Source: Chlorobiota bacterium
Lineage (GTDB): Bacteria > Bacteroidota > Bacteroidia > Bacteroidales > VadinHA17
Length of the DNA: 50,966 bases
Assembly (NCBI GenBank): GCA_013152085.1
Contig: JAADHC010000067.1
Coordinates: 1-50,966 of the forward strand
Reading direction: 5' to 3'
Shown: positions 1-46,454 of the stretch, piece after piece
Layout of the letters: each line of letters starts with the position of its first letter
Position numbering within the stretch: the stretch's first letter is position 1
The notes under the pieces: model-generated
The model's input: only the letters and a program-made list of their open reading frames with translations
Databases searched by the model: none
Told to the model about the DNA's origin: nothing
Made by a program: the position numbers and the translations under genes

Positions 1-463
1 GAATTCCTCAATGCCATGCCCTGAAAGGGCCGAACTTGAATCACCCTGCTGAGAAGACTTAGTCTTGTCAGCAGGGTTCAGCCTCACACGGTCTACACAT
101 CCCCGACAGGGGGTGAACAGATCTGTTATGTGACTTTTTAATCCGGATTGTGAAACAGGGATTTTGAAAAAGCTCTATTGCGAAATTTGTGATTGACCCC
201 CTTCGGGGATCAGAGTCGATCAGTACTTCTTACCGTCCCGAAAACCGGGACGGTTATTCAACTTTAGCCACTTCGTGGCATTATTTGGAACCGGTAAAAA
301 GTATTCACGAAGAAAAAACTTATAATAATTAATCATAGTTGCTGCCTCCGGCAGCCATGGCTTTTTCTTTTTCTTCGGCTTCTTCTTGCAATTACAATAC
401 CTATAAAAGCTTTGCATATATCCCCCTCCGGAGGGGGTGCCCGAAGGGCGGGGAAGGAAAATG

Positions 464-510
464 GGGAGATTACGGCCTCTCTGCGTTCGGCCGTGTTCTC
501 CGGGTGGGGT
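464..510. repeat. 47-bp direct repeat, copy 1 (hairpin-forming)
   Basis: This copy is identical to 587-633 except for one base (T at 497, A at 620). Within the unit, GGAGATTACGGCC and GGCCGTGTTCTCC are near-complementary, so each copy can fold into a hairpin of about 13 bp with a loop of about 10 nt. The family is not recognised. It resembles a REP/MITE-like intergenic palindrome rather than a gene. Confidence 0.8.
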
Positions 511-586
511 GACCCAAACACAAAAAAACTGCTGCCTCCGGCAGCTATGTCATTCCTTATCTGAACAACCGAAAGGAGTCCCCCAA

Positions 587-633
587 GGGAGATTACGGCC
601 TCTCTGCGTTCGGCCGTGATCTCCGGGTGGGGT
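587..633. repeat. 47-bp direct repeat, copy 2 (hairpin-forming)
   Basis: This is the second copy of the 464-510 unit. Here the stem GGAGATTACGGCC/GGCCGTGATCTCC pairs with only a G:T wobble. It ends five bases before the outer arm of the branched palindrome that starts at 639. Confidence 0.8.
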
Positions 634-638
634 ATACC

Positions 639-770
639 AAAAGAAGCATAAGACAGAAGCTTCGCTTCTTCTCTTTTTGTTTTTCATTGCCTTACAGCTG
701 CAAGCAGCTGACGTCTCTGAAAAACAAAAAGACCGTCTTGCCTGCGGCAAAACGGTCTTATGCTTCTTTT
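639..770. repeat. Branched (cloverleaf-like) palindromic element beside tRNA-Pro
   Basis: A perfect 16-bp inverted repeat (AAAAGAAGCATAAGAC at 639-654, its complement at 755-770) encloses three further hairpins. These are AGAAGC/GCTTCT (655-660/664-669), a perfect 15-bp stem 672-686/718-732 capped by CAGCTG/CAGCTG (695-700/705-710), and 734-742/746-754. The result is a four-way-junction fold of 132 nt. It lies directly 3' of tRNA-Pro on the minus strand and includes that tRNA's likely terminator. It shows no coding potential. It could be a small structured RNA, a MITE-like element or a protein-recruiting palindrome. Confidence 0.8.
717..759 (-). terminator. Likely rho-independent terminator of tRNA-Pro
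   Basis: On the minus strand, AAGACCGT and ACGGTCTT flank a GC-rich inner stem (TTGCC/GGCAA), and a T-rich tract TTTTTGTTTTT follows. It lies 12 nt past the tRNA 3' end. It is part of the larger branched palindrome 639-770. Confidence 0.65.
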
Positions 771-771
771 G

Positions 772-846
772 TCGGGGTGGGGAGATTCGAACTCCCGACC
801 TCGTCGTCCCGAACGACGCGCGCTAACCGGGCTGCGCTACACCCCG
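772..846 (-). tRNA. tRNA-Pro (anticodon CGG)
   Basis: The minus strand folds as a complete tRNA: acceptor CGGGGTG/CACCCCG with discriminator A, D-arm beginning TAGCGCAGCCCGG, anticodon stem CGTCG/CGACG with loop TTCGGGA (anticodon CGG), and T-arm GGGAG-TTCGAAT-CTCCC. CCA is not encoded. The 5' half of the gene and its 5' flank are duplicated upstream (887-1025), where the copy is interrupted. Confidence 0.95.
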
Positions 847-886
847 AAAATAACAAAGAACCTCATGATCATCTACAAATTATATA

Positions 887-1025
887 GACGCGCGCTAATC
901 CCGAAAAATTGCAAATCTTTGATTTGCTTATTTTTTCGAGGATCCTCGATTTTGCTACCAAATCACAGATTTGGGCAAAATCGGGACCGGGCTGCGCTAC
1001 ACCCCGAAAATAACAAAGAACCTCA
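887..1025 (-). pseudogene. Partial tRNA-Pro duplicate split by a palindromic insert
   Basis: Bases 986-1025 are identical to 826-865 (40 nt: the tRNA 5' end plus its promoter-proximal flank). Bases 887-897 match 815-825 (11 nt: the D-arm to anticodon-stem part). Between them lie 88 extra bases. On the minus strand this reads as a tRNA-Pro 5' half interrupted in the D-loop between GG and TTA. The 3' half of the tRNA is absent, so the copy cannot make a tRNA. It precedes the intact gene in the same orientation and keeps the same upstream flank, so it may be transcribed. Confidence 0.85.
899..986. mobile_element. 88-bp palindromic insert with cloverleaf symmetry
   Basis: The ends are TCCCGA (899-904) and TCGGGA (981-986). 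Inside are three hairpins in order: GCAAATC/GATTTGC (911-917/921-927), the perfect palindrome TCGAGGATCCTCGA (936-949), and CCAAATC/GATTTGG (958-964/968-974). The two halves are imperfect inverted copies of each other, with 20 of 28 outer positions matching. At most one base could be a target-site duplication. There is no coding capacity, so any mobility would have to be provided in trans. Calling it mobile is inference from its clean insertion into a tRNA copy. Confidence 0.5.
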
Positions 1026-45092: not shown

Positions 45093-46454
45093 TTATTGAT
45101 TGTTTCCGGCAACGGTTGTGAGACTTTGGCCTGTCAGACGTTCTATTGACGATACCGTATCCCGGTATTCGGACTGTATTTGCAGATACCGGGTATAGGC
45201 TGCAAATAAACTGCGCTGCGCATCCAGCACTTCCAGGAAAGAATATTTTCCCTCCCGGTATCCCTGCCGGAGGATATCCAAAGATCCCTCTGCCTGCGGA
45301 ATAATCTTGTCATGCAGATTATGTGCCTGGGATTGCAGATCCTTTAACCGCTGATACAAGAGTGTCAGCCTGTTGGAAAGAGTAATCTGCAACGCTTGTT
45401 TTTCAGCCTCAGTCTGTTGATAAAAGATCTGCGCTTTTTTGATATTCCCCTGGTTCCGGTCAAAGTAAGGTATGGGAATGGAAACGCCGGCCACAAAAGC
45501 ATTGGTTGATATTTCATTCAGCCTGCGGTAACCGAAACTGATTACCGGATCGGGTACACCCAGGGCTTTTTGCAGGGCAATATCCGCTTCCCGCTTTTTT
45601 CTCACTGCTTCCATCCGTTTAAGATCCGGATTCTGTACCAGTAAAAGTTTCAGTGACCCAAGGTCTGGCAATTGATCAGGAATGGAAATAGATCCTTTTG
45701 CTGCCCTGAAAGTAGCAATATCATCTCCCCAGGTAGCTGCCAAAGCGGCATGTGCTGCCTTAAGCTGATACCGGATGCTTTCCACTGTCATTGCCGCCCG
45801 TTCCACTTCAATTTTCGCTCTTGCCTGTTCTGCCGGTGAAGAAGCACCGGCCAGAACCCGTTTTTCAATGGAAAGGCTGAGTTCTTCGGCCAGCTGAAGC
45901 AGTCGCCTGCTTTGCGCCAGCTGCTCCTGTAATGCCAATATATTATAAAAGGTCTTCAAAACGCGGGTATAAACATCCAGCTTTTTTGATTCGTAGTCCC
46001 AGGCGGCCAGATTACCTGACAGGGCAGCTACCCTTGTCCTCTTTTCCCGCTTTTTCCCCAGCTCAATCAATTGCCCTACAGACAACGTAATCTCCGAGGC
46101 TCCGGCTCCACGGTAATCCTTACCCCCTGCGATGTTCTCAAGTTCAAGACCGGCTTCCGGATTGGGAAGCAGGGATTGTTGTAAAATCTCAGCATCCCAC
46201 GCACGCAGGTTATATGAATAGACTTTCAGTTCGGGGCTGTGCAACAAGGCCAGTTTTATGGCCTGTGGCAGGGTTATGGTATCCGGCTGCAGGGATACGG
46301 TATCACCGGAAACCGTATCTTTCTGAAATTCCTCATATTTCTGCAAAACCGGGACCTGAACGGGTTTTTCTGTCATTACCGTTTGTTCCGGGATCGAACA
46401 TCCCGTGATGATCACTGTAATAAACGGGACAATGATAAGGTGCTTTCGGTTCAT
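45093..46454 (-). CDS. TolC family outer-membrane channel (CusC/CzcC-like)
   Basis: 453 aa with a lipoprotein signal (IIVPFITVIITGC). It has two OEP repeats of alpha-helical hairpins: long Gln/Ala/Leu helices with ASPAEQARAKIEVERAAMTV near the middle and KYSFLEVLDAQRSLFAAYTRYLQ near the end. It completes the tripartite efflux system with the adaptor and pump genes 3' of it. A structured 148-bp gap separates it from the preceding small gene. Confidence 0.92.
   Translation of the reverse strand: MNRKHLIIVPFITVIITGCSIPEQTVMTEKPVQVPVLQKYEEFQKDTVSGDTVSLQPDTITLPQAIKLALLHSPELKVYSYNLRAWDAEILQQSLLPNPEAGLELENIAGGKDYRGAGASEITLSVGQLIELGKKREKRTRVAALSGNLAAWDYESKKLDVYTRVLKTFYNILALQEQLAQSRRLLQLAEELSLSIEKRVLAGASSPAEQARAKIEVERAAMTVESIRYQLKAAHAALAATWGDDIATFRAAKGSISIPDQLPDLGSLKLLLVQNPDLKRMEAVRKKREADIALQKALGVPDPVISFGYRRLNEISTNAFVAGVSIPIPYFDRNQGNIKKAQIFYQQTEAEKQALQITLSNRLTLLYQRLKDLQSQAHNLHDKIIPQAEGSLDILRQGYREGKYSFLEVLDAQRSLFAAYTRYLQIQSEYRDTVSSIERLTGQSLTTVAGNNQ

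Follow-up and report, generated by a model that had tools for sequence, protein, structure and literature searches.

The 50,966-nt stretch of DNA analysed here, hereafter the window, is the complete contig C56 of a 3.38-Mb draft genome (75 contigs). Near its start a tRNA-Pro gene has a long palindromic sequence on either side, which raises the question of whether the two belong to one class of structured element. The original prediction, based on the sequence, was that they do not align with each other, which proved correct, and that both nevertheless feature an outer inverted repeat enclosing three hairpins, defining a single class recognised by shape. Our analysis indicates instead that the two sequences, termed E1 and E2, represent genuine families which are unrelated to each other and share a link to tRNA genes. 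The features of the locus are the following:

464..518, minus strand: second copy of the GGAGATCAC..GTAATCTCC hairpin, 93% identical (repeat family D2)
587..641, minus strand: hairpin GGAGATCAC..GTAATCTCC following E1, identified by sequence, the same tail being found after many E1 copies
638..771, minus strand: E1, a cloverleaf with a 17-bp outer stem (repeat 638-654/755-771) and three hairpins, beginning at the tRNA-Pro 3' end (model R1 at 642-767, 50.4 bits; folding z-scores given below)
655..669, minus strand: E1 hairpin 3 (sequence, fold)
672..732, minus strand: E1 hairpin 2, with A/U-rich arms at 672-686 and 718-732 and an inner stem capped by CUUG (sequence repeats, fold)
730..760, minus strand: E1 hairpin 1, followed by a U-rich tract on the minus strand; read as the putative intrinsic terminator of tRNA-Pro (sequence, fold, analogy with genome G012)
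771..846, minus strand: intact tRNA-Pro(CGG) (ARAGORN; Rfam RF00005, 64.3 bits)
887..898, minus strand: nt 21-32 of a truncated tRNA-Pro copy, on the inner side of E2 (identical to 815-826)
899..986, no strand assigned: E2, a double-hairpin element occupying the D-loop of the truncated copy of tRNA-Pro (fold; model R2, 99.7 bits on the minus strand; tRNA junction)
987..1006, minus strand: nt 1-20 of the truncated tRNA-Pro copy (identical to 827-846)
1007..1025, minus strand: leader ahead of the truncated copy, repeated at 847-865 ahead of the intact tRNA

As originally described, E1 directly abuts the 3' end of the tRNA-Pro gene and E2 is contained within a partial copy of it. E2 lies 52 nt ahead of the 5' end of the intact gene. 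The leader is duplicated along with the truncated tRNA-Pro, 826-865 and 986-1025 being identical in 40 of 40 nt. The hairpin at 587..641 may represent what is left of a tRNA-Pro T-arm whose loop holds a palindrome. Rfam analysis of the window returned only two tRNAs above the curated score, and E1 and E2 match no family at threshold, the best sub-threshold match on E2 being RAGATH-25 (22.0 of 49 bits, E 0.011). A 65-aa lysine-rich ORF, broken up by several small hairpins, lies on the minus strand at 220-417, downstream of the tRNA-Pro collar. The first ~90 bases of the window (1-90) coincide with the end of contig C22 of the same genome (L189, after tRNA-Val CAC), which makes it probable that, immediately outside the window at this end, there is a tRNA-Val bearing an E1 of its own.

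Both elements fold far better than dinucleotide-shuffled sequences. For E1, minimum free energies of -59.0 and -64.6 kcal/mol were calculated for the plus and minus strand (z -8.3 and -8.6), and none of 200 shuffles folded as well on either strand. The outer repeat and the three enclosed hairpins are present as predicted, the repeat being a perfect one of 17 nt, not of 16. E2 features z-scores of -6.7 and -7.4; the 6-nt TCCCGA/TCGGGA repeat and the three short palindromes from which a cloverleaf had been proposed are found in its sequence, but the minimum free energy structure consists of two adjacent hairpins, each half being closed on itself. E2 measures about 88 nt and contains two inverted hairpins of about 44 nt, each closed by TCC/GGA and carrying one bulged base.

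In 28 diverse E2 copies, 96.2% of cells are paired in the two-hairpin fold and 26 of 37 pairs show double-sided changes; double changes number 180, as opposed to 46 in shuffles, and covariation is 0.485, as opposed to 0.125. The extra helices of the cloverleaf proposed for E2 (six outer and five middle pairs) show double-sided changes in none of their 11 pairs, three of which are broken in 5, 7 and 9 of the 28 copies, respectively. The second closing pair is altered to TGC..GCA in three copies and to TTC..GAA in two, both partners lying within one half: the proposed outer stem is thus broken in those five copies, and the shared cloverleaf does not exist. Pair counts across E2 copies therefore rule out one cloverleaf class for the two elements, which differ in fold, in conserved features and in position relative to the tRNA. 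The alternatives initially put forward, MITE-like sequences or structured elements linked to tRNA loci, each fit one of the two, E2 being MITE-like and E1 a structured element at tRNA loci.

For both families, further copies exist in related genomes and are found beside other tRNA genes. No second place similar to E1 at the DNA level was found in the genome of the window. A strict cloverleaf test, in contrast, selected 13 of its 38 tRNA 3' flanks (Phe, Val three times, Gly, Asp, Pro three times, Ser three times and Cys), versus 6 of 190 shuffles and 17 of 300 random windows, the latter being drawn from tRNA loci and possibly including real E1 copies; E1 is also located at the tmRNA gene. The 32 of 106 obtained by an earlier, looser test are not used as evidence, since shuffles pass it at a mean of 6.0 out of 38 and random windows in 84 of 400 cases. 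The CUUG loop of the middle hairpin is found in 12 of the 13 copies. In these copies hairpin 1, as seen by eye, is a GC-rich stem followed by a U-run and placed directly after the gene, and reads as a putative intrinsic terminator of the tRNA.

Model R1, built from three E1 copies, matches 22 of 24 genomes of the same family, the present one included, and 2 of 16 others. We inspected 52 matches, corresponding to 30 returned loci and 22 rows, in 20 places, picked from a longer list: in 44 the start is no more than 9 nt from a tRNA 3' end, in 5 it is equally close to a tmRNA 3' end, two are second copies located 174-185 nt further on, and one has neither. Within the family, E1 is about 110-135 nt long. 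When 72 distinct copies are aligned, 95.2% of cells pair (58.0% after shuffling) and all 45 pairs feature double changes, the alignment being fitted to the structure and hence favouring it. At the E1 of six further loci Rfam recognised only tmRNAs, and no E1 family at curated score; E1 could, in addition, represent a novel family of RNAs. Tandem second E1-like copies are observed after tmRNA or tRNA genes at L388 (contig C39 of the present genome, 829-946), L392 and L403.

The E2 region matched 30 of 60 genomes, some of them via its tRNA part alone. Model R2 matches 17 of 40 genomes, and the genome of the window contributes 43 matches, both strands included. Here, 12 of the 17 listed E2 places lie in tRNA fragments and five elsewhere (twice in C7, and in C38, C4 and C11), four of these five within GGTTC-type repeats; the places in C71 and C10, each at the end of a contig, possibly represent a single locus. 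A pattern scan using no tRNA letters yielded at least 117 stretches, nearly all from Bacteroidota; a few records are named as Marinamargulisbacteria, Chlorobiota or Patescibacteria groups, possibly through wrong binning. Among the unique E2 copies listed, one of which is an artefact of negative length, 34 of 123 are inside tRNA fragments, in the D-loop or sometimes the T-loop (30 at nt 12-22, three at nt 54 and one at nt 66), and 89 outside, often in short repeats. A separate set of 55 copies, of which 30 lie in tRNA fragments, was for the most part obtained with a query containing tRNA sequence, and 34 of 123 among the copies listed is thus the fairer estimate. The exact E2 pattern, taken without its variants, has no match in viral contigs.

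Many E2 copies are embedded in short degenerate tandem repeats featuring words like GGTTCTT, GTTCGTG and CAGTAAC (L410 and L409 in the present genome; L293, L297, L298 and L335), which resemble T- and D-loop words. At L287, 3' of a tRNA-Phe, an inverted copy of part of the tRNA is found, along with two E2 insertions (at nt 54 and 66) in a 3' fragment, an arrangement that hints at template switching.

The architecture of E2 at tRNA genes was analysed in 40 cases located upstream of an intact tRNA, namely those accepted by one script, with one E2 counted twice (L083, Gly and Thr). E2 follows tRNA nt 15, 19 or 20 in 32 of the 40 cases (11, 11 and 10, respectively) and other positions in 8; a median of 12 tRNA nt is found after it. 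The median distance from E2 to the start of the intact tRNA is 51.5 nt, 21 of the 40 falling between 46 and 54 nt; five distances are of 255-272 nt, and three of these five loci contain a GIY-YIG ORF. Small GIY-YIG ORFs of about 80-130 aa are also seen, more generally, with an intact tRNA on one side and a truncated half, 5' or 3', on the other (L204 in C59 of the present genome, L065, L068, L073, L081, L143, L144, L157 and L165).

The word TAnnTTTG, a Bacteroidota promoter element, precedes the truncated half in 19 of 40 cases (mean of 2.0 in shuffles), while it is found in only 3 of 32 spacers ahead of the intact tRNA; the figure for other tRNAs is 102 of 186. Its position ahead of the truncated half and its rarity in the spacer suggest that transcription of the intact tRNA probably passes through E2. 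Relatives were compared at one E2 locus, a tRNA-Arg(TCT) of another genus (G025 was left out). In G035 and G006 a promoter, a short leader and the tRNA follow one another without E2, as in an empty site; in G017 and G031, of the same genus, tRNA nt 1-19 and E2 are followed by a complete tRNA with a different leader. The 61 nt ahead of E2, 19 of which are tRNA, match G035 at 79% and G006 at 77%, which indicates that the truncated, promoter-proximal half stands in the place of the old gene.

In the genome of the window, the scan for truncated copies covered 30 tRNA loci, to which L204 was added from the remaining ones. Truncated 5' copies carrying E2 are found for Pro (three), Gly, Val (two), Met (two), Arg and Ala, and for a Phe cut by a contig end; those of Asn (in the anticodon arm, with the D-loop intact) and Ser contain smaller palindromes. 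Among the other carriers is Draconibacterium orientale FH5T, where a truncated tRNA-Ala containing E2 adjoins the intact gene (L230). At loci chosen for E2, the D-loop region is uninterrupted in 6 contexts and occupied by E2 in 40. Two genomes with no R2 match still feature partial tRNA copies at 7 of 35 tRNAs, so that the duplication does not require E2 as such; in four of the seven copies other palindromes lie at the anticodon arm, three with the TCCCG/CGGGA ends also found in E2. At L441, L435, L437 and L431, in genomes lacking R2 matches, a palindrome stands in place of the anticodon arm of the tRNA copy.

A simple tandem duplication does not fit all cases, because the leader ahead of the truncated half is clearly repeated ahead of the intact tRNA in only 5 of 30 loci. 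The distance from E2 to the tRNA is less variable than its two parts (r -0.59 between parts, n 30). A ruler of about 50 nt is judged on this full set alone, since the tight subset of 23 loci (49.9 +/- 3.6 nt) was selected on that very distance. The truncated 5' copy may once have extended to the T-loop, as is clear in a few loci, but spacers match their own T-arm at p <=0.05 in only 6 of 30 cases. GTTCTTT leaders, which might derive from T-loops, number 9 of 30 versus 16 of 186 control leaders.

At the other end of the gene, many E1 copies are followed by a tail with a hairpin GGGATCAC..GTAATCCC, a possible T-arm remnant. The last 14-16 nt of the tRNA are repeated after E1, at >=96% identity, in 10 of 70 E1-like contexts, and many E1 copies have no such repeat. 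Relatives were compared at one E1 locus, a tRNA-Ser(TGA) (G022 was left out). In G012 the repeat continues through a plain terminator, 39 of 39 nt coinciding with the start of E1, and the 3' arm of E1 is the complement of that local flank; the same tRNA features plain terminators only in G029 and G034, of the same genus. E1 was therefore probably gained in G012, together with a duplication of the tRNA end and terminator.

On these grounds we consider it rather probable that the tRNA genes of these Bacteroidales harbour miniature palindromic insertions from two distinct families, with duplication of the disturbed end of the tRNA. Counting against this reading are the E2 copies outside tRNA fragments (89 of 123, and 5 of the 17 listed in the present genome), the truncated tRNA copies in genomes with no R2 match, the low share of repeated leaders and the 6 contexts uninterrupted through the D-loop. 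tRNA genes are essential, and an insertion is tolerated only if the gene is restored. Each insertion would be accompanied by a short duplication of the disturbed end, the 5' end for E2 and the 3' end for E1, by which one complete tRNA would survive; we infer that this tRNA would be transcribed from the old promoter upstream of E2, through the element, and its transcript would end at the terminator hairpin inside E1. More tentatively, selfish palindromes might prefer tRNA loops and GGTTC/CAGT-like words, and their insertion might be mechanistically coupled to duplication of the broken end, each hit leaving a working tRNA transcribed through the element; successive rounds could then surround tRNA and tmRNA genes of Bacteroidota with nested collars composed of a truncated half, a palindrome, the intact tRNA, a cloverleaf and a T-arm remnant.

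Selection on RNA function is a serious rival to this account, above all for E1. The E2-bearing half and E1 would be the structured leader and trailer of a tRNA precursor, steering its processing or termination, and the ~50-nt distance and the CUUG hairpin would be kept because they work. The constancy of the CUUG loop (12 of 13 copies in this genome), the double changes in all 45 E1 pairs of the 72-copy, structure-fitted alignment, the E2-tRNA distance that varies less than its parts (r -0.59, n 30) and the start of E1 exactly at tRNA and tmRNA 3' ends are consistent with such a role, and the conservation of the sequence around the CUUG core may itself mean selection rather than insertion. E1 is missing, however, from 25 of 38 tRNAs of the genome and from the same tRNA in genomes of the same genus, and E2 is found far from tRNAs too, which makes a functional origin rather unlikely in our opinion. 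It is also conceivable, if on the whole doubtful, that E1 is neither mobile nor a regulatory RNA, but simply a strong terminator acting in both directions, which arose when the terminator of the tRNA was copied locally in inverted orientation. Hairpin 1 and its U-tract are terminator-like on the tRNA strand, as are hairpin 3 and the opposite tract on the other, and in the G012 tRNA-Ser the first 39 nt coincide with the nearby plain terminator, while the 3' arm complements the local flank. Local copying offers no explanation, however, for the CUUG core and the GGGATCAC..GTAATCCC tail, as both recur at unrelated tRNAs.

For E2, two protein-driven explanations were weighed. Small GIY-YIG endonucleases might cut tRNA genes, the truncated halves being homing scars and E2 and the other palindromes merely filling dead halves. 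A tRNA lies within ~260 nt at 12 of 18 small-ORF loci (among 30 loci returned), the ORF is placed between truncated half and intact tRNA in L065, L068, L073 and L081, with the domain confirmed by Pfam, and at the tRNA-Ala of the present genome an ORF of this type precedes a palindrome-containing 3' half. These associations are suggestive of a causal role, which we nonetheless regard as unlikely: at 30 of 40 E2 loci less than 75 nt separate E2 from the tRNA, leaving no room for such an ORF, and E2-free genomes have these ORFs too. Much less credible is a REPIN-like nature of E2, with mobilisation by a transposase of the Y1 (RAYT) type. E2 does consist of two small hairpins in inverted arrangement, each half carrying a bulge, Y1_Tnp genes are found in 27 of 36 genomes, and a weak Y1 match (C11 of the present genome, 47064-47315, E 1.8e-4) lies about 1.2 kb from the E2 at 45736-45843, another, in G010 C84, about 2.7 kb from an E2 match. 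Yet none of 20 Y1 loci contains E2, none of 22 (those 20 and two of the present genome) contains a half-E2, and G018, with 61 E2 matches though 89% complete, and G004, with 14, show no Y1_Tnp match; mobilisation by Y1/RAYT is thus unsupported.

Two separate insertion families with duplication of the tRNA end, the reading we favour, recall several known systems. Rickettsia palindromic elements are inserted in genes, tRNA genes included, and the host gene stays in use, whereas here a second, intact tRNA is present. The E. coli rtT repeats after tyrT (Rfam RtT) are tandem repeats each containing a tRNA 3' end, for which we know of no cloverleaf or T-loop palindrome; they are resembled by the tRNA-Lys of the present genome (L184, C69), where two tandem copies of the tRNA-Lys 3' end and a long palindrome follow the intact gene. 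Closer to E2 are the mitochondrial double-hairpin or repetitive hairpin-forming elements of Allomyces, sponges and yeast, short enzyme-less palindromes with single or double hairpins and variable stems, thought to be mobile (PMC2800124). E2 shares with them two adjacent hairpins, the lack of coding capacity and a presence differing among close relatives; it differs in residing in bacterial chromosomes and in inserting in tRNA loops with the intact tRNA kept alongside, a tRNA duplication which the account of the mitochondrial elements in PMC2800124, where it deals with them, does not describe. E2 works like a mitochondrial double-hairpin element, and common descent is not claimed.

REPINs or BIMEs, REP doublets associated with RAYT, are inverted doublets of small imperfect hairpins present in many copies per genome (PMC3733652). 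E2 is likewise an inverted doublet of short imperfect hairpins, but it carries no GTAG or CGTC tag, ending in TCCCG/CGGGA in aligned copies, with AG or GG as the word mostly found ahead; at the Y1 loci examined no E2 copy lies beside a RAYT gene, and tRNA loops are a frequent E2 site. Integrative elements at tRNA genes, such as phages, ICEs and islands, are framed by a partial and a complete tRNA copy (PMC9897764). A whole and a partial tRNA may likewise be kept with E1 and E2, which in contrast measure about 90-170 nt, with no integrase or coding room within either; moreover, E2 truncates the 5' half, that is, the promoter side. No description of these elements was found in the open-access literature searched.

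In many genomes, minute gene-less elements occupy tRNA loops, with a working copy kept beside them, and the surviving tRNA seems to depend on read-through. If this is true, several questions become testable: by what means sequences of less than 100 nt spread, whether short duplications are triggered by hairpins, and how, among species of a single genus, the leaders and trailers of essential tRNAs change. The two covariance models, R1 and R2, are made available by this analysis, and partial tRNA calls next to tRNA genes would find an explanation.
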